NCBI RefSeq assembly: GCF_900109465.1
Contig: NZ_FOAZ01000005.1
Location: forward strand, 328,473-392,472
Source of the DNA: Streptacidiphilus jiangxiensis
Lineage (GTDB): Bacteria; Actinomycetota; Actinomycetes; Streptomycetales; Streptomycetaceae
Direction: 5' to 3'
DNA length: 64,000 nucleotides
Below, in pieces: positions 6,566 through 52,737 of this stretch. The position numbers were made by a program, and so were the translations under genes. The notes under the pieces are model-generated. The model was not told the DNA's origin and made no database searches. It saw nothing but the letters and a program-made list of their open reading frames with translations. Position 1 is the first letter of the stretch. The number at the start of each line of letters is the position of its first letter.

Positions 6566-8319
6566 CAGTACTTACGCTCCATCGGCTGGTAGCGGGTGAC
6601 CACGACCGGCTTGTAGTCCAGACGCACACTGGTGTCGCCGTTCGCGTCGACCTCGCGGTACGCCATGGTGTGGCGCATGAAGTTGACGTCGTCGCGGGTC
6701 GGGAAGTCCTCGCGGAAGTGACCGCCGCGCGACTCCTTGCGGGCGAGCGCGGAGACCGCGGTCACCTCGGCCAGGTCGAGCAGGTTGCCCAGCTCGACGG
6801 CCTCCAGCAGGTCGGTGTTGTAGCGCTTGCCCTTGTCCATCACCGAGATGTTCTTGTAGCGCTCCTTCAGCTCGGCGATGTCGGCCACCGCCTGCTTCAG
6901 GGTCTCCTCGGTGCGGTACACGGACACGTTGGTGTCCATGGACTGCTGCAGCGCCTCACGGATCTCGCCGACGCGCTCGGTGCCGTTCGAGGTGCGGATG
7001 GTCTCCAGCATCTCGACGACCTTGGCGGCCGGGTTCTCCGGGAGCTCGACGAACTCGGCGGTCTCGGCGTACTTCGCGGCGGCGATGCCGGCGCGGCGGC
7101 CGAAGACGTTGATGTCGAGCAGCGAGTTGGTGCCCAGGCGGTTGGCGCCGTGGACGGACACGCAGGCGACCTCACCGGCGGCGTACAGGCCCGGGACAAC
7201 GGTCGTGTTGTCGAGGAGGACCTCGGACTCGTTGTTGGTCGGGATGCCGCCCATGGCGTAGTGCGCGGTGGGCTGGATCGGGATCGGGTCCGTGTAGGGC
7301 TCGATGCCGAGGTAGGTGCGCGCGAACTCGGTGATGTCCGGCAGCTTGGCGTCCAGCTGCTCCGGCGGCAGGTGGGTGAGGTCCAGGTAGACGTGGTCGC
7401 CGTTGAGGCCACAGCCACGGCCGGCCCGGATCTCCGAGTAGATCGCGCGGGAGACGACGTCACGGGACGCGAGGTCCTTCATGACCGGCGCGTAGCGCTC
7501 CATGAAGCGCTCGCCGTCCTTGTTGCGCAGGATGCCGCCCTCGCCGCGGGCGCCCTCGGTGAGCAGGATGCCCATGCGCCAGATGCCCGTCGGGTGGAAC
7601 TGGAAGAACTCCATGTCCTCCAGCGGCAGGCCACGGCGGTACGCGGCGGCCTGGCCGTCACCGGTCAGGGTGTGCGCGTTGGAGGTCACCTTGAAGAACT
7701 TGCCGTTGCCGCCCGAGGCGAAGATGACCGACTTCGCCTGGAAGACGTGCACCTCGCCGGTGGCCAGCTCGTAGGAGACGACGCCGGAGACCTTCTTGAC
7801 GCCGTCGACCTCGACCAGCAGCAGGTCCAGGACGTAGAACTCGTTGAAGAACTCCACGCCCTCCTTGACGCAGTTCTGGTACAGCGTCTGGAGGATCATG
7901 TGGCCGGTGCGGTCCGCGGCGTAGCAGGAGCGGCGGACCGCCGCCTCGCCGTGGTTGCGGGTGTGGCCGCCGAAGCGGCGCTGGTCGATCTTGCCCTCGG
8001 GGGTCCGGTTGAAGGGCAGACCCATCTTCTCCAGGTCGAGGACGGCGTCGATCGCCTCCTTGGCCAGGATCTCGGCGGCGTCCTGGTCGACCAGGTAGTC
8101 ACCGCCCTTGACGGTGTCGAAGGTGTGCCACTCCCAGTTGTCGTCCTCGACGTTGGCCAGGGCGGCGGCCATGCCGCCCTGGGCCGCGCCGGTGTGGGAG
8201 CGGGTCGGGTAGAGCTTGGTCAGGACCGCGGTGCGGCTGCGCTTGGTGGCCTCGACGGCCGCACGCATGCCCGCGCCGCCGGCGCCGACGATGACGGTGT
8301 CGTACTGGTGAATCTTCAT
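6565..8319 (-). CDS. sdhA: Succinate dehydrogenase flavoprotein subunit
   Basis: 584 aa. N-terminal FAD-binding GAGGAGMRAA (about 12-21), the flavinylation segment SHTGAAQGGMAAAL with the His that carries covalent FAD, HPTGI, and the active-site region RGEGGILRNKDGERFM. HYAMGGIPTN matches the substrate-binding part of the family. It oxidises succinate to fumarate on the cytoplasmic side. Full length, third gene of the sdhCDAB operon. Confidence 0.97.
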   Translation of the reverse strand: MKIHQYDTVIVGAGGAGMRAAVEATKRSRTAVLTKLYPTRSHTGAAQGGMAAALANVEDDNWEWHTFDTVKGGDYLVDQDAAEILAKEAIDAVLDLEKMGLPFNRTPEGKIDQRRFGGHTRNHGEAAVRRSCYAADRTGHMILQTLYQNCVKEGVEFFNEFYVLDLLLVEVDGVKKVSGVVSYELATGEVHVFQAKSVIFASGGNGKFFKVTSNAHTLTGDGQAAAYRRGLPLEDMEFFQFHPTGIWRMGILLTEGARGEGGILRNKDGERFMERYAPVMKDLASRDVVSRAIYSEIRAGRGCGLNGDHVYLDLTHLPPEQLDAKLPDITEFARTYLGIEPYTDPIPIQPTAHYAMGGIPTNNESEVLLDNTTVVPGLYAAGEVACVSVHGANRLGTNSLLDINVFGRRAGIAAAKYAETAEFVELPENPAAKVVEMLETIRTSNGTERVGEIREALQQSMDTNVSVYRTEETLKQAVADIAELKERYKNISVMDKGKRYNTDLLEAVELGNLLDLAEVTAVSALARKESRGGHFREDFPTRDDVNFMRHTMAYREVDANGDTSVRLDYKPVVVTRYQPMERKY

Positions 8320-44373: not shown

Positions 44374-45150
44374 TCAGAGGCGGCTGCCACGGCGCCGGGT
44401 GAACGCGAGGGCCCCACCGCCGAGGACGACCAGCGCGACACCGCTGCCGATCAGCAGGCCGGTGTCGGAGCCGCCACCCGTGTCGGCGAGGCCGGTCCCG
44501 GTCGCGCTGGGCGCCGGGGTCGGCGTGGCCGAGGCCCCGGCCTCGGGCGCGGCCACCACCGTGAAGCGGTTGTAGGCGGCGGCGTTCGTCCCGTAGCAGC
44601 CGCTGCCGCTCGGCGGCACGCTGGTGTGCGCGGTGCTGCCCGTGGGCTGTGCGCTGAAAGCGACGCCGGTGAGCTGGTAGGTCCCCGCCGGTGCGCCCTT
44701 GGGCACGGAAAGGCGCAGCGGGACGGTGTCGACGTTCCCGGCCTTGAGCGTCTCGGAGCCGGTGGCCCAGGACAGCGGCAGGAACGGGTACGGGTCACCC
44801 TTCTGGTAGCGGTAGGGCACGACGGACCAGGTGCCGTCGTGCTCGGCCTCCACCACGACGACCTTGTTCGGGTAGGGCTTGACCGGGTCGTCCTTGATCT
44901 GGCCGCTCGTCAGGCCCTCGAAGTATTTGGGCAGGGCCTTCCCCGACACGTTCTTGAAGACGACCGTTCCGTTCACAGCCGGGCCGCCGGCCGTGAGGGT
45001 GCGGCCTGTGAACCCGGTCAACGAGACGTTCAGTGCGCAGGGCCCGGAGCCGGGCGGCGGTGCGGGTGTGGCGGCGACGGCCGGAGCCGCGCCGAGCACC
45101 CCGAACGCGGCCGCCGCGGTCAGTGCTGCGGCAATTCGATGCTTGTGCAC
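44374..45150 (-). CDS. Sortase-anchored surface protein (LAxTG)
   Basis: 258 aa. Signal peptide [20 protein letters not shown] with an AVA-A site near 27. The C-terminus has LADTGG, a hydrophobic span and RRRGSRL, i.e. a LAxTG sorting signal of the class E sortases of Streptomyces. The ectodomain has two Cys and an Ig-like strand pattern with Pro-rich start and Ala/Pro/Thr stalk. Covalently wall-bound; ligand unknown. Lies downstream of the NlpC/P60-Pgs genes with 143 bases between. Confidence 0.8.
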
Positions 45151-45293: not shown

Positions 45294-46346
45294 TCACAGC
45301 CTCCGGGCCGCGCGGAAGCCGGTGGCGTAGAAGCCGGGGCCGTCGAGGCGGGCGGCGCCCGCCTTGTCGCCCATGGTGGGCCCGTTGGCCTGGCTGCGGC
45401 TGGAGAGGAAGCGGGGGTGGCCCTCGGTGTCCGGGCCGAGGTACATGCCGCAGTGGTCGATGAAGTTCGGCTCGCCGATGTTGATCGAGAAGAAGACCAG
45501 GTCGCCCGGCTGCAACGGGCCGAGGTCCGACGGCCGGGCGTGGGTGTTCGGAATGACCAGCACGCCGGGCGCGTAGGCCGCGATCGCGTAGGCGCGGCGC
45601 GGCAGGCCGACGCCGCGGGTGTTGGAGACGTGCATGGGGTAGCCGTTGCGGTAGCCCCAGACCAGACGCAGGTAGCCGGAGCAGTCGACCATGCCGTAGC
45701 GGGCCTTCTCCGGATCGCGGTGGCCGTCGGGGAAGTTCCACGGGATGCCCAGGTAGTCGTAGAAGTCCGACCGTTCGTCCCGGCTGTGGAAGGAGTCCGC
45801 CGACTGGCCGGGGATGCGCGGGCCGAACGCGGCGTCACCGGCGATCCGCAGGCCGTGCGCGTCGCGGATGTCCGGGGCGCCGTCCCCGTACTGGAAGGCG
45901 ATGCCGAGGACGTCGGGGCTGCGGTCGGCCAGAGCGGTCGGGAACCAGCCGCGGAACCAGCCGGTCCGCTCCCGGCCGACGTGCCATGCGGTGGGCATCA
46001 GCCGCACCCAGGCGGTGCTTTCGACCACGGCGGTCGTGGTCCGCGGCTCGGTCCAGGTGCGGCTCGGGCCGGTCAGCAGTGCGGTGCGGGCGCCGTCGGT
46101 GAGGACTGCGAGCTGGTTCCCGTCGGCGTCGCTGACGACGGTGCGGTCCGGGCCGGTCTGCCGGGTGAAGCCCAGGCTGCCGGTGGCGACCGGAGCGGGG
46201 GAGGCCGAGGCCGCGTCGACGGGGCCGGGGGAGGCGGCGGCGGCCGACCGGTCGTGCAGCTCGACGCCGAGGGTGGCGGCGACGCCCGCGAGCGCGACGC
46301 CCGCGGCGCCGCCCAGCAGTCGGCGGCGGGACAGGGGCGGGGCCAT
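45294..46346 (-). CDS. Tat-exported NlpC/P60 hydrolase
   Basis: 350 aa from the ATG at 46346, with GGAG 5 bases upstream; a GTG at 46352 overlaps that site. Twin-arginine signal SRRRLLGGAAGVALAGVAA. An N-terminal SH3-like part (about 60-130) precedes the NlpC/P60 domain with Cys222 (MVDCSGYLRLVW) and His298 (FIDHCGMYLG). The family cleaves gamma-glutamyl bonds in peptidoglycan, and some members cleave poly-gamma-glutamate. It starts 16 bases after pgsC, which makes a role in polymer release or remodelling attractive but unproven. Confidence 0.85.
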   Translation of the reverse strand: MAPPLSRRRLLGGAAGVALAGVAATLGVELHDRSAAAASPGPVDAASASPAPVATGSLGFTRQTGPDRTVVSDADGNQLAVLTDGARTALLTGPSRTWTEPRTTTAVVESTAWVRLMPTAWHVGRERTGWFRGWFPTALADRSPDVLGIAFQYGDGAPDIRDAHGLRIAGDAAFGPRIPGQSADSFHSRDERSDFYDYLGIPWNFPDGHRDPEKARYGMVDCSGYLRLVWGYRNGYPMHVSNTRGVGLPRRAYAIAAYAPGVLVIPNTHARPSDLGPLQPGDLVFFSINIGEPNFIDHCGMYLGPDTEGHPRFLSSRSQANGPTMGDKAGAARLDGPGFYATGFRAARRL

Positions 46347-46362: not shown

Positions 46363-46845
46363 TCAGGCGGTGGGCAGCGCGCCGAGCAGCAGCCCGGCGG
46401 CCAGGACGACGTACGTGCCGAGGGTGACCGCGCCGGTGGCGATGGCGGTGGCGGCCTTCGGCTGGCGGACCAGCTGGTAGGCGATCAGGCCCGGAACGAT
46501 GAAGCCGAGCGTCTGGCTGGTCCAGAGCAGCGGGAACTCCTGCTGCAGGGCGATGACGACGGTCATCTGGATCAGCACGGCGCTGAGTACGACCGCGGCG
46601 AACAGCCGCTTGCCGTAGAGGATCACCGCTCGCTGCAGCGCCTTGGTGGCCAGGTAGGTCAGCACCGTCACCGCCAGCACGAGCAGCGCCCGCTGGACGT
46701 CGGTGACGAGGGTGAGCGCCAGCCAGCCCGGGGTGATCATGCCGCCGGGGGAGAGGTTGGTGGTCAGGTAGCAGACGAGGGAGAAGACCAGCCCGAGGGC
46801 GATGCCGAGCGCGGCGATCTGCGGGGTGAGCGCGGCGGGGATCAC
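46363..46845 (-). CDS. pgsC: PgsC/CapC-like poly-gamma-glutamate synthase membrane subunit
   Basis: 160 aa, five or so hydrophobic segments. LVCYLTTNLSPGGMITPGWL and LGFIVPGLIAYQLVRQ correspond to the conserved parts of PgsC/CapC (YxxTGLSPGGLIVPGY-like and PGLIA). The GTG start overlaps the pgsB stop by 4 bp, so production is coupled to PgsB, its partner in the membrane ligase. Confidence 0.85.
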   Translation of the reverse strand: MIPAALTPQIAALGIALGLVFSLVCYLTTNLSPGGMITPGWLALTLVTDVQRALLVLAVTVLTYLATKALQRAVILYGKRLFAAVVLSAVLIQMTVVIALQQEFPLLWTSQTLGFIVPGLIAYQLVRQPKAATAIATGAVTLGTYVVLAAGLLLGALPTA

Positions 46846-48368
46846 AGGGGGTACCTCGTCCGGTCGTTGGCGTTGTCGTTGGCGTTGTCGTTCTTGTGGT
46901 CGTGGCGGTGGCCGTCGTCGGGGTGGGTGTCCGGGGCGGCGGCGGGCTGCCGGGGCAACCGCAGGGTGAGGGTGGTCGAGCCGTCGGCGGCGGCCGGAGC
47001 GTCGAAGCCGTCGAAGCGTTCCGGCCCGTCCAGTGCGTTCACCTCGCGCGGGTCCCGCGCCTGACCGGGCCGGGCCGCAGCCCCGCGGGGGGTCGCGCTG
47101 CGGGTCTGCGCGAGGTACACCCCCTCGTCGTAGCCCCATTCGTCGTCCCACTCGACGGGCTCCGGTCCGGCGGCGGCGGACGTCTCCTCGTCCGGCTCCA
47201 GCTCGGCCAGGTGCTCCAGGAGCAGTTCGCCCTGGCCGTGGATGTTGCCGATGGCGACCAGCGACGCCTCGGGTGGCAGCTCGGCCAGCAGGCTCTCGGT
47301 GAGCAGCCCGGCGTCGCGCCTGTCGCCGCCGAGGTCGACGACCCGGCCGCGGAAGGAGGCCGGGACGGCGTCCGCCGCGCTCCTGGTCGGGTGGCCGATC
47401 AGGAAGACCAGGTCGGGGGCGAGGTCGGGGATGATCGCGCCCATCTGGGCGTTGCGCTCCACCCGGTCCGGCCGGCAGTTGATCACGACGGACAGCGGTC
47501 GCCGGATCGCGCCGAGGTCCAGCAGCTGCCGGACGTTCATCAGCGTCGACTCCGGGTCGTTGGCCGCGAAGACGTTGGCGAAGCGCAGCCGCCCGCCCTG
47601 CGGGGTGCGATAGCGCTCGACGGACAGCACACCCGGGTCCGGCGGCGCCTCCCACATGCCGCGCAGCGCGGTCTCCCGTTCCACGCCCAGCAGTTCGGCC
47701 ACGGCCAGGGCGATCGCGACGTTCTCCTTGAAGGTGAACCAGGAGAAGCCGCGCAGCTCGGCGTCGCTGACGGTCTCCGGATCGACCGCGACCAGCCGGC
47801 AGTTCCGCTTGTCGGCCTCCTCCTGGAGGATCGCCAGGCGGTCCTTCTCGGCGGTCACGCAGACGCCGCCGACGGGCATCGAGCGCGAGAGCGAGCGGGC
47901 CACGTCGTCCAGGGTCGGACCCATCTCGGCGAGGTGGTCCTCGCGGACGTTGCACAGCACCCCGATGGTGGAGCGGATCAGCTTCTCCTGGTTGATCTCC
48001 TGCAGCGCCGGCATGACGGCCATGCACTCGATGACCAGGGCGTCGGGCCGGTAGGTGGCGGCGCGGCGGACGATGCCGATCTGCTCCACGACGTTCGCCA
48101 GGCCGAACTTGCGGTAGACCGGCTCCTCGGTGGCGTCGGGGTGGATGAAGCGGGCCGCGGTGCCGGTGGTCTTGGCGACGGTGGTGAGCCCGCCGCCGCG
48201 CAGCGCGCCCGCGCACAGGCGGGTGATGGAGCTCTTGCCGCGGATGCCGTTGACCAGCACCCGCACGGGTATCTGGTCGAGCGAGGAGTTGTGGCGTCGC
48301 TGCTCGACCACGCCGGCGACCAGCAGGACGAGGCAGCAGAGCAGGAGCACGAAGTACAGGAACAGCAC
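46842..48368 (-). CDS. pgsB: PgsB/CapB-like poly-gamma-glutamate ligase
   Basis: 508 aa from the GTG at 48368 (GAAGGAAGAAGA upstream). An N-terminal membrane anchor (1-22) is followed by VLVNGIRGKSSITRL (41-46 P-loop GIRGKS), then TTGTAA, NVREDHLAEMG and VINCRPDRVERN, as in the Mur-ligase-like CapB family that activates glutamate with ATP. The last 110 residues are unlike CapB: acidic and Pro-rich, ending in His/Asp/Asn repeats (KNDNANDNAND). Full catalytic core, so probably active; whether the product is poly-gamma-glutamate is not shown. Confidence 0.88.
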   Translation of the reverse strand: MLFLYFVLLLCCLVLLVAGVVEQRRHNSSLDQIPVRVLVNGIRGKSSITRLCAGALRGGGLTTVAKTTGTAARFIHPDATEEPVYRKFGLANVVEQIGIVRRAATYRPDALVIECMAVMPALQEINQEKLIRSTIGVLCNVREDHLAEMGPTLDDVARSLSRSMPVGGVCVTAEKDRLAILQEEADKRNCRLVAVDPETVSDAELRGFSWFTFKENVAIALAVAELLGVERETALRGMWEAPPDPGVLSVERYRTPQGGRLRFANVFAANDPESTLMNVRQLLDLGAIRRPLSVVINCRPDRVERNAQMGAIIPDLAPDLVFLIGHPTRSAADAVPASFRGRVVDLGGDRRDAGLLTESLLAELPPEASLVAIGNIHGQGELLLEHLAELEPDEETSAAAGPEPVEWDDEWGYDEGVYLAQTRSATPRGAAARPGQARDPREVNALDGPERFDGFDAPAAADGSTTLTLRLPRQPAAAPDTHPDDGHRHDHKNDNANDNANDRTRYPL

Positions 48369-48418: not shown

Positions 48419-50629
48419 TCAGGTCCTGGCGGTGGAGCGGTCGCCCGGCCGGCCGGTGCGTCGTGCCGGGGCAGTCCCGAGCTGCTGGCGGATCAGTTCG
48501 AGGCTGCGCGTGACCGAGCCCACCTCGTCGTGGTGGACGGGGTAGCGGACGGTGCGGCGGTCGCCGCCGGCCAGCCGTTCGGCCGTCTCCGCGAGGTCGC
48601 GCAGCGGACGGACGACGAGCACGTGCAGCCAGCCCAGGCAGCCGGCCACGGCGGTCAGCCCGAGCAGGCCGGCCAGCAGCGTCAGCCGCTGGGTGCGGTA
48701 GGCGCCGAGGTCGAGCCAGGAGGCGTTCTGTGAGCTGACGATCTGCCAGCTCTCGGAGGTGTCGGTGCCGGTGACGGCCCCGAGCGGGGCGGCGGCGGCC
48801 AGCAGCTGGTCGCTCCCCTGCGGCAGCAGCCGCGACTGCGGGCCGGTCGCGGCGTCCTGGGCGAGCCCGGTCAGGGCCGGCGAGGGCAGGCTCTCGTAGG
48901 CGCGGAAGCCGTTGCGGGAGGCGATGACCTTCTGCCGGGCGTCGACCAGCCAGACGCTGCCCATGCCGGGCTGGTCGAGGGCGGTGTCCAGGGCGGAGAT
49001 GTCGAACTCGGCGACCACCGCGACCGGCGTGAAGTCGCCGAGGTCGATCGGCTGCTGACCGGGGACGGCCGGCCGTGCGGCCGGGACGGGGGCCCACGCG
49101 GCCAGCACCGGGATCCGGCCGGCGGTGTTGACCTGCACCAGCCCGCCGCTGCCGGTCAGCCGGTGCAGCGCCTGGCGGGGCGTGCCGCCCGCGGTGGTGA
49201 GCACCTGGCCGTCGCGGGCGAGGACGTAGACGGAGCCGTAGCGGCCGTGCTGGTCGAGCCAGGCGGACAGCACGCCCTGGGCCCGTTCCGGGGTGCTGGC
49301 GCCGTCGAGGGCCGAGGCCATGGTGGTGACGTCCTGGACGCCCTCGGCCAGGGTCTCCCGCACCCGGGCCGCCGCGGCGGAGGTGCGGGTCTGCTGGTCA
49401 GCGACGAGCTGGTGCGGGACGGCCGAGGCGCTGACCGGACGGGTGGAGATCAGCAGCAGCGGCGCGGACCAGGCCGCCAGCACCACGCCGCAGCTGACCA
49501 CCAGCGCGCCGGCGCCGAACCGGCGGCGGAGCGGACGGAACAGCTCGGCGGGTTCGCCCAGCAGTTGGCGGCGCAGGCCGTCCAGGGCGTGGCCGATCCG
49601 GGCGGCCTCGCCGGAGCGGGGCAGCGGCGCGGGGCGGGAGAGGTCGCCGCGGGCGATCCGGACGCCGCCGAGGTGCAGTTGCAGCAGCGGGCGTTGCAGC
49701 CGGGTCACCAGCAGCAGCGTCACCACGAGGGTGGCGAGCAGCAGTCCGGCGGCGGAGGAGAGGGCCAGCAGCGAGTTGCCGCTGACGTCCGGGGCCTGCG
49801 GGGTGTTCACGACGACCACGACGACCAGGCCGAGCGGGTGCACGGCGGTGTCGGTGGCCGGGACCAGGTCGGCCCAGCCCGCCACGGTCCGCCGACCGTC
49901 GCGCAGGTCGCCCAGGAGGAAGCCGGAGTTGCGGGTCTGGCCGACGCCGCCGCCGAGCCCGGTCGAGGCCCGGGCGGAGGAGGCGGGGATGCGCTGGTCC
50001 TGGGTGCCGACGAGGGCCGGCCCGAGGGCGGCGACGGTGCGGCCGCGGCCGTCGACGATGAGCACGCCGCGGCTGGTGTCCCCGCCGGGGGCGGTCAGCC
50101 GCAGCGTGTCGGTGGTGACCAGCAGCCGGTTGTCGACGGTGGCCCAGAAGGACAGCCGGGCCTGGCCGTCCGGCAGGGTGATCAGGGTGGGGCGGGGACT
50201 GTTCCGGGTGCCGTCCGCGTTGGTGGCGGCGGAGGTCCGCTGCGCGGCCTGCACGGCCGCCGCAGGGACCGGCTCGCCGCCGACGGCCAGTACGCGTCCG
50301 TCGGTGCGGTCGGCCACGACGACGCCGCTCCACGGGTGGCCCTGGGCGAGGGCGGCCGGCAGCGCGGCGTCGGCCGGCTGCGCGGAGCCCGGGGTGCTCA
50401 GCGCGGTGAGTTCGGCGGCCTGGTGGCGCAGCGTGTCGAGGTCGCGGTCCACGGTCGCGCGCAGCGCGCTCGCGGCGTCCTCGGCCAGGTGTTGTTGCGA
50501 GGTCAGGACGGCGGGGGCGACGTCGATGGTGACGTTGCGACCGAGGGCGAGGGCGGTGATCGCCGCGACCGCGAGCAGGGTGCACAGCAGCGCCGCGACG
50601 GGTGGCCGGACGCCCCCGAGCAGGGGCAT
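48419..50629 (-). CDS. Double sensor-HAMP membrane protein without output domain
   Basis: 736 aa from the ATG at 50629. Two successive modules: TM (9-29), extracellular part 30-283, TM (286-308), HAMP (309-360); then TM (372-394), extracellular 395-648, TM (649-672), HAMP (673-718, VVRPLRDLAETAERLAGGDR). The ectodomains look Cache-like (SGVVVADRTDGRVLAVGG; GSVYVLARDGQVLTTAGG; GSVWLVDARQKVIASRNGF). It ends 18 residues after the second HAMP: no histidine-kinase, methyl-accepting, GGDEF or phosphatase domain. It precedes pgsB by 50 bases on the same strand. Confidence 0.8.
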   Translation of the reverse strand: MPLLGGVRPPVAALLCTLLAVAAITALALGRNVTIDVAPAVLTSQQHLAEDAASALRATVDRDLDTLRHQAAELTALSTPGSAQPADAALPAALAQGHPWSGVVVADRTDGRVLAVGGEPVPAAAVQAAQRTSAATNADGTRNSPRPTLITLPDGQARLSFWATVDNRLLVTTDTLRLTAPGGDTSRGVLIVDGRGRTVAALGPALVGTQDQRIPASSARASTGLGGGVGQTRNSGFLLGDLRDGRRTVAGWADLVPATDTAVHPLGLVVVVVVNTPQAPDVSGNSLLALSSAAGLLLATLVVTLLLVTRLQRPLLQLHLGGVRIARGDLSRPAPLPRSGEAARIGHALDGLRRQLLGEPAELFRPLRRRFGAGALVVSCGVVLAAWSAPLLLISTRPVSASAVPHQLVADQQTRTSAAAARVRETLAEGVQDVTTMASALDGASTPERAQGVLSAWLDQHGRYGSVYVLARDGQVLTTAGGTPRQALHRLTGSGGLVQVNTAGRIPVLAAWAPVPAARPAVPGQQPIDLGDFTPVAVVAEFDISALDTALDQPGMGSVWLVDARQKVIASRNGFRAYESLPSPALTGLAQDAATGPQSRLLPQGSDQLLAAAAPLGAVTGTDTSESWQIVSSQNASWLDLGAYRTQRLTLLAGLLGLTAVAGCLGWLHVLVVRPLRDLAETAERLAGGDRRTVRYPVHHDEVGSVTRSLELIRQQLGTAPARRTGRPGDRSTART

Positions 50630-50856: not shown

Positions 50857-52737
50857 ATGGCCAGTGCCGTACTGCCGGGTAGCGACACGACCGTCCGCAG
50901 GCGCGGAGGCCGTCGCCGCCGGGCCGCCGAGCCGACGCCCCCGTGGCTGCGCGCCGCCCTCGCGGTCGTGCTGCTGACCGCGGCCTGGCTGTACGGCTGG
51001 GGGCTCGACGGCGCCTCGCTGCACCCGTACTACACGGCCGCCGTCCGTGGCATGGCCGGCAGCTGGCACGCCTTCCTCTACGGCTCGCTCGACTCCGGCG
51101 GCACGATCACCGTCGACAAGCTGCCCGGTGCGCTCTGGCTCCAGGCGCTGTCCGTCCGTCTCTTCGGCCTGCACATCTGGGCGGTGGCGCTGCCGCAGGC
51201 CGTCGAGGGCGTGGCCACCGTGTGGGCGCTGTTCCGGATCGTCCGCGCCTGGGCGGGGCCGGTGGCCGGCCTGCTGGCCGCCCTCGCGCTGCTGGTCACG
51301 CCGATCGCCGCCGCGCTGGCCCGCCACAACATCGCCGACACGCTGCTGACCCTGCTGCTGGTGCTGGCCGCCGGGGCGGCACTGCGGGCCTGCCGCACCG
51401 GTCAGTCGGGTCCGCTGCTGGTCTGCGCGCTCTGGGTCGGGCTGGCCTTCCAGGCCAAGATGCTCCAGGCGTGGCTGCTGCTCCCGGTCTTCGGCGGCCT
51501 GTACCTCTACGCGGCGCCCGGCCCGTTGCGGCGCCGCGTCGTCCAGGTGCTGGCCGCCGGTGCGACCACGCTGCTGGCCTCCTGCCTGTGGGTGCTGCTG
51601 GTCTGGTTCACCCCCGCCGCCGACCGCCCCTACGTGGACGGGACCACCGGGAACAACCCGTTCGCGCTGGTCTTCGGCTACAACGGGCTGAGCCGCTTCG
51701 GCGGCGGCAACGGCTCGGGCCTCGGCTCCGTGGCGGGCACCGCCGCGTCCCGGCCCACCGGCGGCGCCGGGCTCACGGCCCTGACCAGCCACAGCGCCGC
51801 GCCCCAGATCAGCTGGTTCCTGCCGGTGGCCGTGCTGGCGCTGGTGCTCGGCCTGCTGGCCCGCCGCGGCCGGGAGCGGACCGACGGGGTGCGGACCGGC
51901 TACCTGCTCTGGGGTGGCTGGGTGCTGGTCAACTACCTCGTCTTCGCCGCCTCGTCGGGCATCCACGCCTACTACACCGTCGTGCTCGCCCCCGCCTTCG
52001 CCGCCCTCGCGGGCGCCGGGGCCGTCGCCGCGTGGGAGCGGTTCGGGGCGGCGCGGACCCAGCAGCAGCGCTATCCGATCCTCGGGGTGGTCGTGTCCGG
52101 GGTGCTGTGGGCGGTGGTCGTGGACGGCCACTTCTCGACGTTCCACCGATGGCTGGTGCCCGTCGTGGGCGCGTTGGGCCTCGCCGGGGTCGGGGCACTG
52201 GCCCAGGGGCGCGACTGGGGCGTCTGGCCCTCGCTGGCGGCGGTCGTGCTCAGCCCGCTGCTGTGGTCGCTCTCGGTGCTGACGCCGCAGTTCGCCGGCA
52301 GCGCGACCTCGCCGATGGCCGGCCCGGTCGGCAGCGGCTACCTGGCCGCCAAGTACCAGCGCGCCGCCGCGCCGGTCGCCTTCGCGGCGAAGGCGGGCCG
52401 GTACGCGCACGTGCTGGACTTCCTGCAGAAGCACCAGGGAACCGCGTACTACCTCGTCGCCACCCAGAGCGCGGAGCCGGCCGAACCGCTGCTGCGCGGC
52501 AGCGCCGCGCCGGAACTGGTGATGGGCGGCTTCACCGGCAACACCCCGTTCCCCACGGCGGAGGCGCTCGCCGCGGAGGTGGCCTCCGGCCGGGTGCGGT
52601 ACGGCCTGCTGATCGCCAACCGCCCGCAGACCGATGCGAGCCGCTGGATCGCCGCGCACTGCCGAGTGGTCCCCCCGGCGACCTACGGCGAACCCGGCCC
52701 GGGCACGACCACGCTCTACGACTGCGCGAAGGGTTAG
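50857..52737 (+). CDS. GT39-type polyprenol-phosphate-sugar glycosyltransferase
   Basis: 626 aa integral membrane protein with about 11-12 hydrophobic segments after an Arg-rich start. The first extracytoplasmic loop (HPYYTAAVRGMAGSWHAFLY, TVDKLPGALWLQAL) contains the family's acidic/DKLP region, and ALARHNIADTLLTLLLVLAA follows. It is related to ArnT/PMT-like YkcB proteins that move a sugar from a lipid carrier to an extracellular acceptor. The C-terminal soluble domain (about 505-626) carries two Cys. Divergent from the Pgs set; acceptor unknown. Confidence 0.85.
   Translation: MASAVLPGSDTTVRRRGGRRRRAAEPTPPWLRAALAVVLLTAAWLYGWGLDGASLHPYYTAAVRGMAGSWHAFLYGSLDSGGTITVDKLPGALWLQALSVRLFGLHIWAVALPQAVEGVATVWALFRIVRAWAGPVAGLLAALALLVTPIAAALARHNIADTLLTLLLVLAAGAALRACRTGQSGPLLVCALWVGLAFQAKMLQAWLLLPVFGGLYLYAAPGPLRRRVVQVLAAGATTLLASCLWVLLVWFTPAADRPYVDGTTGNNPFALVFGYNGLSRFGGGNGSGLGSVAGTAASRPTGGAGLTALTSHSAAPQISWFLPVAVLALVLGLLARRGRERTDGVRTGYLLWGGWVLVNYLVFAASSGIHAYYTVVLAPAFAALAGAGAVAAWERFGAARTQQQRYPILGVVVSGVLWAVVVDGHFSTFHRWLVPVVGALGLAGVGALAQGRDWGVWPSLAAVVLSPLLWSLSVLTPQFAGSATSPMAGPVGSGYLAAKYQRAAAPVAFAAKAGRYAHVLDFLQKHQGTAYYLVATQSAEPAEPLLRGSAAPELVMGGFTGNTPFPTAEALAAEVASGRVRYGLLIANRPQTDASRWIAAHCRVVPPATYGEPGPGTTTLYDCAKG

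Follow-up and report, generated by a model that had tools for sequence, protein, structure and literature searches.

The window analysed herein is a 64,000 nt stretch of Streptacidiphilus jiangxiensis DNA (GCF_900109465.1, NZ_FOAZ01000005.1, positions 328,473–392,472 of the forward strand). It harbours, on the reverse strand, the gene for a 736 aa membrane protein, here termed the sensor, followed by pgsB, pgsC and an NlpC/P60 hydrolase gene. The features, in window coordinates, are:

50857–52737, forward strand: divergent PMT/YkcB-type GT-C glycosyltransferase gene (Pfam PMT_2, E 2e-21; YkcB_C, E 1.5e-16)
48419–50629, reverse strand: double-module TM–dCache–TM–HAMP protein with no output domain, 736 aa, ATG at 50629
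50543–50599, reverse strand: TM1, residues 11–29 (hydropathy; helix 8–30 in the AlphaFold2 model)
49778–50539, reverse strand: ectodomain 1, predicted double Cache, residues 31–284 (AlphaFold2 of the N-half with VIA-align; homology with ectodomain 2)
49706–49777, reverse strand: TM2, residues 285–308 (hydropathy and AlphaFold2 model)
49556–49705, reverse strand: HAMP 1, residues 309–358 (Pfam HAMP; model helices 285–326 and 340–356; match to the Af1503 HAMP)
49448–49510, reverse strand: TM3, residues 374–394 (hydropathy and AlphaFold2 model)
48689–49447, reverse strand: ectodomain 2, predicted double Cache, residues 395–647 (weak Pfam dCache_1; Mlp24/PctA ligand-binding domains, Z 16.8)
48614–48688, reverse strand: TM4, residues 648–672 (hydropathy and AlphaFold2 model)
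48479–48613, reverse strand: HAMP 2, terminal, residues 673–717 (Pfam HAMP; motif YPVHHDEVG...RSLELIRQ)
48422–48478, reverse strand: C-terminal tail, 19 residues, of low model confidence and unconserved
46842–48368, reverse strand: pgsB, poly-gamma-glutamate synthase amide ligase, 508 aa, GTG start (TIGR04012, E 6.6e-114)
46363–46845, reverse strand: pgsC (Pfam Caps_synth_CapC, E 5e-34)
45294–46346, reverse strand: NlpC/P60 hydrolase with a Tat-like signal, SRRRLL (Pfam NLPC_P60, 24.2 bits against a cut-off of 23)

The start site of the sensor is backed by an MPLLGGxRPP motif that is nearly invariant within an alignment of 28 family members. Hydropathy places four TM segments at about residues 11–29, 290–308, 376–394 and 655–673, whilst Pfam detects two HAMP stretches (E 3.2e-13), the first of which leads into an arginine-rich linker and then TM3. 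AlphaFold2 models, which are single-chain whereas HAMP works as a dimer, predict both ectodomains to be double Cache domains, such that the TM–dCache–TM–HAMP arrangement is repeated twice (whole protein, pLDDT 80.9 and pTM 0.74; N-half, pLDDT 79.1). Comparison of the two halves by profile–profile alignment indicates that they are homologous (99.6%, E 8e-23), as are the ectodomains alone (E 9e-12), with both E-values referring to a single comparison rather than to a database search. The claim in the earlier note that two sensor modules lie in tandem, each ending in HAMP, is therefore borne out by Pfam, hydropathy, structural modelling and the homology between halves.

That note also proposed comparing the ectodomains with Cache families, and here the outcome is mixed: the double Cache fold is recovered in the AlphaFold2 models, but the Pfam dCache_1 match of the window protein is weak, at 22 bits against a cut-off of 45. 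Across the family HAMP is matched in 28 of 28 members and dCache_1 in 15 of these. At the structural level, ectodomain 2 resembles the ligand-binding domains of the chemoreceptors Mlp24 and PctA (Z 16.8 by VIA-align, with Foldseek also run), and ectodomain 1 that of PctC (Z 14.1 by VIA-align). Amino-acid sensors of the dCache_1AA type possess a binding motif with R-x-W-Y; a simple pattern search for this, unaligned to any structure, found it in none of the 28 sensor sequences.

The absence of an output domain extends throughout the family, with none found after the last HAMP in any of the 28 aligned members, which as homologues are 38–66% identical. The earlier note was thus correct that the protein ends shortly after its second HAMP, but the tail is 19 residues in length, not 18. 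Among the 28 members the tail ranges from 2 to 59 residues (in L049 the stop lies two residues past the HAMP), and has a high content of Ala, Arg, Ser, Gly and Pro. Conservation within the protein is highest in the terminal HAMP, with a mean majority-residue fraction of 0.85, compared with 0.75 for HAMP 1, 0.53–0.54 for the ectodomains and 0.38 for the tail.

A frameshift or sequencing error concealing a kinase domain, which the earlier note had named as a risk, can be excluded, because all 28 aligned members end 2–59 residues past the HAMP and the open frame closes at the same point in each. The probability that the sensor is a truncated or frameshifted sensor kinase is accordingly negligible. 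In its favour are isolated broken copies, namely a sensor split into two frames in L059 (genome G030) and one interrupted by a single TGA in G081 (contig C98); against it stand the shared end point, the position of pgsB directly afterwards, and the fact that related HAMP proteins bearing an output have about 210–290 residues past the matched stretch. The latter are those of the weaker HAMP matches that were inspected (L002 and L016–L030); considered as a second streptomycete family of output-less HAMP proteins, they consist of histidine kinases together with a single adenylate cyclase-like protein, and this candidate was rejected. One TAA is also reported inside the PgsC open frame of G139 (contig C9), and assembly errors or decay may account for the broken copies in G030, G081 and G139.

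With regard to the neighbouring genes, the window PgsB passes the TIGR04012 equivalog model (380.6 bits, cut-off 222.7), whilst PgsC scores 117.7 bits for CapC in Pfam (cut-off 27) and 73.8 bits for TIGR04011, which is under the cut-off of 96.45. The two genes overlap by 4 bp, which is also the usual overlap across loci, and the stop codon of the sensor gene lies 50 bp from the start of pgsB, if this is the GTG at 48368. In double-module loci PgsB carries a variable, low-complexity C-terminal extension (46842–47180 in the window) that brings its total length to 405–653 aa, and PgsB in single-module loci is 393 aa. Sequence searches returned no solved structures for PgsB, PgsC or the NlpC/P60 protein, the last of which is a possible polymer hydrolase. 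A sortase-anchored (LAETG) surface protein adjoins the operon at 44374–45150 on the reverse strand (NF041528), with no match in other sensor loci.

The link between the sensor and PgsBC is remarkably strict. Amongst 150 Streptomycetaceae genomes, PgsC is present in 39 and the sensor in the same 39, with neither occurring in the other 111; these 39 genomes share ancestry and are not 39 independent events. Genomes were sampled rather than covered exhaustively, and whole-genome sensor searches were confined to Actinomycetota. Every locus with covered flanks has the order sensor–pgsB–pgsC, usually followed by the NlpC/P60 gene, a match to which is missing from two double-module loci (L045 and L049) and from the single-module loci. 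The distance from sensor stop to pgsB start ranges from -31 to 72 bp and is mostly 2–29 bp; of the 62 locus entries, a set in which some genomes are represented twice, 56 fall between -4 and 29 bp.

The same association is evident in a quick IQ-TREE phylogeny of PgsB (62 rows, unrooted, with SH-aLRT supports only), in which one branch (SH-aLRT 94) separates the 47 sensor-linked rows from the 15 others, and another (SH-aLRT 90) sets apart the 44 rows from double-module loci. Presence of the sensor requires one change on this tree, compared with about 14–16 when labels are shuffled. The earlier note had made its proposal dependent on a conserved link to pgsB, and such a link is upheld by the identical set of genomes, the fixed gene order and the single PgsB group. 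Judged from these comparisons, there is very strong support for an obligate genetic link between the sensor and one PgsBC lineage. The anatomy of the protein, its duplication, its missing output, the obligate link and the single lineage are each established by sequence.

PgsB and PgsC are common to the Bacillus PgsBCA(E) system and to the classical actinobacterial PgsB–PgsC–CapA–GGT arrangement, and both kinds of PgsB pass TIGR04012. The classical loci differ in having no sensor gene, and their PgsB is about 36–40% identical and falls outside the sensor-linked group. No sensor match was found near pgsBC in families f56 and f87 (Actinomycetota PgsC loci), and the readable sensor-less loci run pgsB–pgsC–capA–gamma-glutamyltranspeptidase (L118 by Pfam, the others among the loci listed). 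A third type of PgsC locus has two CapC stretches (G241, G485 and G536), which are fused into one protein in G241. In L094 (6578–7594 and 8921–9844, reverse strand) this fusion lies 3′ of pgsB, and just upstream of the same pgsB is a membrane protein whose soluble half is unrecognised and, by eye, perhaps a degenerate GGDEF domain. Within PgsB, 85 of 217 conserved positions are specific to the sensor-linked group; these point to no interface and may reflect divergence alone. As the sensor-linked enzyme differs at so many group-conserved positions, a somewhat different product is possible.

The duplicated sensor occurs in Streptomycetaceae and one other lineage. Single-module relatives are found in three distant loci from two families, L093 (374 aa), L128 (395 aa) and L131 (partial), and each has one TM–dCache–TM–HAMP module, ends after the HAMP and is encoded directly before pgsB. 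The L093 and L128 proteins give their best match to the second, C-terminal module of the double-module sensors. Due to the existence of these output-less, single-module versions in distant loci, the streptomycete form looks like a module duplication, and the simplest reading of the sequences is that the single module would be ancestral and the double form a later duplication of it; alternatively, the single-module forms may have lost their first module. Directly before the single-module sensor gene lie stand-alone receiver (REC) genes, one in L093 (8804–9400, reverse strand) and two in L128 (2450–2833 and 2833–3195, forward strand), and a hybrid kinase gene is located near L128. The REC proteins have no DNA-binding output, and their position suggests that a two-component relay may formerly have partnered the sensor. 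Related-looking proteins of 328–430 aa also flank the single-module pgsBC genes (L128, 6003–6989 on the forward strand and 6996–7985 on the reverse strand; L093, 8959–10251 on the forward strand). None has a Pfam match, the two in L128 also lack an NCBIfam match, and by eye they are possibly polymer hydrolases.

Sensor loci come in three flavours, having capA just upstream, a PMT/YkcB-type glycosyltransferase gene, or neither in evidence. The capA gene lies right before the sensor gene in 16 locus entries, in one of which the sensor is partial, and the glycosyltransferase gene is found in 12 retrieved entries, either upstream and divergent (the arrangement in the window) or 3′ of NlpC/P60 (L054, L055, L057, L058, L098 and L099). 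In the flanks examined, no sensor locus has both. The window genome itself has no gene anywhere for PGA_cap (PF09587), the PgsA/CapA partner. In one study B. subtilis made polymer from pgsBC without pgsA (PMC6029982), and thus the CapA-less operon of the window could still be functional; a review states that pgsA deletion blocks polymer making (PMC5751247).

In domain layout the sensor resembles chemoreceptors such as PctA, Mlp24 and McpB, as well as sensor kinases and the SiaA phosphatase, which share the TM–dCache–TM–HAMP module and, for the dCache fold, give Z scores of 14–17. Its best NCBIfam match is the SiaA HAMP region. In contrast to the sensor family, these proteins all carry a kinase, phosphatase, cyclase or methyl-accepting output past the HAMP. 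To our knowledge, HAMP domains have nearly always been studied with a covalently attached output. The statement in the earlier note that they normally signal to an output domain holds with one caveat, as in the archaeal Af1503 receptors HAMP is the sole cytosolic part and there is no effector domain (PMC4834066). The Archaeoglobus fulgidus gene is translationally coupled to the gene that follows it, lies among membrane-transport genes, and has Af1502/STAC as its partner (PMC4834066). The nearest solved HAMP to that of the sensor family by profile comparison is indeed that of Af1503, in a match confined to the HAMP. Whilst both are transmembrane receptors that have no effector and no cytosolic part other than HAMP, here the module is doubled, the ectodomains are of the bacterial dCache type and the partner genes encode a polymer synthase rather than STAC and transport functions. 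With no more than about 70 bp separating the sensor stop from the start of pgsB, there is no room for a STAC gene between them. A common lineage with Af1503 is not claimed.

Since the sensor gene always lies directly before one kind of PgsBC genes, its product probably serves the synthase as a dedicated regulatory component. We favour, with moderate confidence, a role as a sensor or regulatory subunit dedicated to one PgsB–PgsC lineage and acting through protein contact of the terminal HAMP. In favour of this role are the matching sets of genomes, the fixed gene order and close spacing, the single change on the PgsB tree, the conservation of the terminal HAMP but not of the tail, the single-module relatives that likewise stop past the HAMP just ahead of pgsB, and the Af1503 precedent. 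The two extracytoplasmic dCache domains would bind or feel something outside, and each would drive the helical bundle of a cytosolic HAMP. As HAMP 1 leads back into the membrane by way of TM3, the simplest mode of action for module 1 would be to move module 2, relaying the movement of the first sensor into the second. The C-terminal HAMP would then serve as the output surface, switching or positioning by direct contact PgsC and/or PgsB, the latter a Mur-ligase-like, ATP-dependent enzyme whose N-terminus bears a single TM helix. Direct contact, the direction of the signal and poly-gamma-glutamate as the polymer are points that we infer. The interpretation in the earlier note is thus supported in part, as to the duplicated modules, the missing output and the dedicated link to PgsB/PgsC, and the mechanical signalling proposed there is a possibility. 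If the HAMP does contact the synthase directly, then polymer would be controlled post-translationally without a kinase, cyclase or methyl-accepting domain. Held with rather more doubt than confidence is the fuller proposal that the bare HAMP directly switches the synthase, with the sensor a constitutive synthase subunit, the synthase an output domain in trans, and HAMP 1, trapped between two membrane segments, passing the signal within the protein from the first sensor to the second.

Against the favoured role, participation in assembly or export would likewise be compatible with operon linkage, the conservation of HAMP 2 could be due to dimerisation alone, no ligand motif was recognised with the simple pattern, and REC genes precede the single-module form in two lineages. 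On an assembly or export account the sensor would be a structural or export/assembly subunit, its Caches holding or guiding nascent polymer partly in the manner of Bacillus PgsA/CapA and its HAMP being a dimerisation stem only. The window genome, which keeps the sensor–pgsBC operon yet has no PGA_cap, is consistent with this, as are the several loci without capA nearby and the empty result of the simple ligand-motif pattern. We nevertheless regard it as unlikely, given that the combination of dCache and HAMP is the layout of sensors across bacteria, and that loss of CapA needs no substitute where PgsBC alone makes polymer, as in B. subtilis (PMC6029982). The notion that the sensor simply replaces CapA is further weakened by the presence of both in 16 locus entries. 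It is also conceivable, if decidedly improbable, that the sensor is a co-receptor, its terminal HAMP pairing with a separate histidine kinase or stand-alone REC protein so that the synthase is reached only via a relay. The REC genes directly before the single-module form in L093 and L128, and the hybrid kinase gene near the latter, speak for this account, but streptomycete operons, whose flanks were compared with selected queries, revealed neither a REC nor a kinase gene alongside the sensor. Moreover, REC-only proteins lacking a DNA-binding output would still place the effect at the protein level in single-module loci.

The reading of the sensor as a dedicated regulatory subunit bears on both HAMP biology and polymer synthesis. 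In the open-licence papers searched, neither an actinomycete PgsBC-linked sensor, nor the coupling of a HAMP-only receptor to a polymer synthase, nor the duplication of such a receptor is described, and the sensor-linked loci define a second type of PgsBC locus within Actinomycetota, likewise without description in those papers. Gamma-linked polyglutamate is an industrial polymer. Control of the B. subtilis polymer is reported to be exerted at transcription, by DegSU and ComPA (PMC5751247); the sensor family offers a handle on possible regulation of gamma-linked polyglutamate at the protein level. With an enzyme complex as its obligate genetic partner, the role of an effector-less HAMP becomes testable in ordinary soil bacteria.
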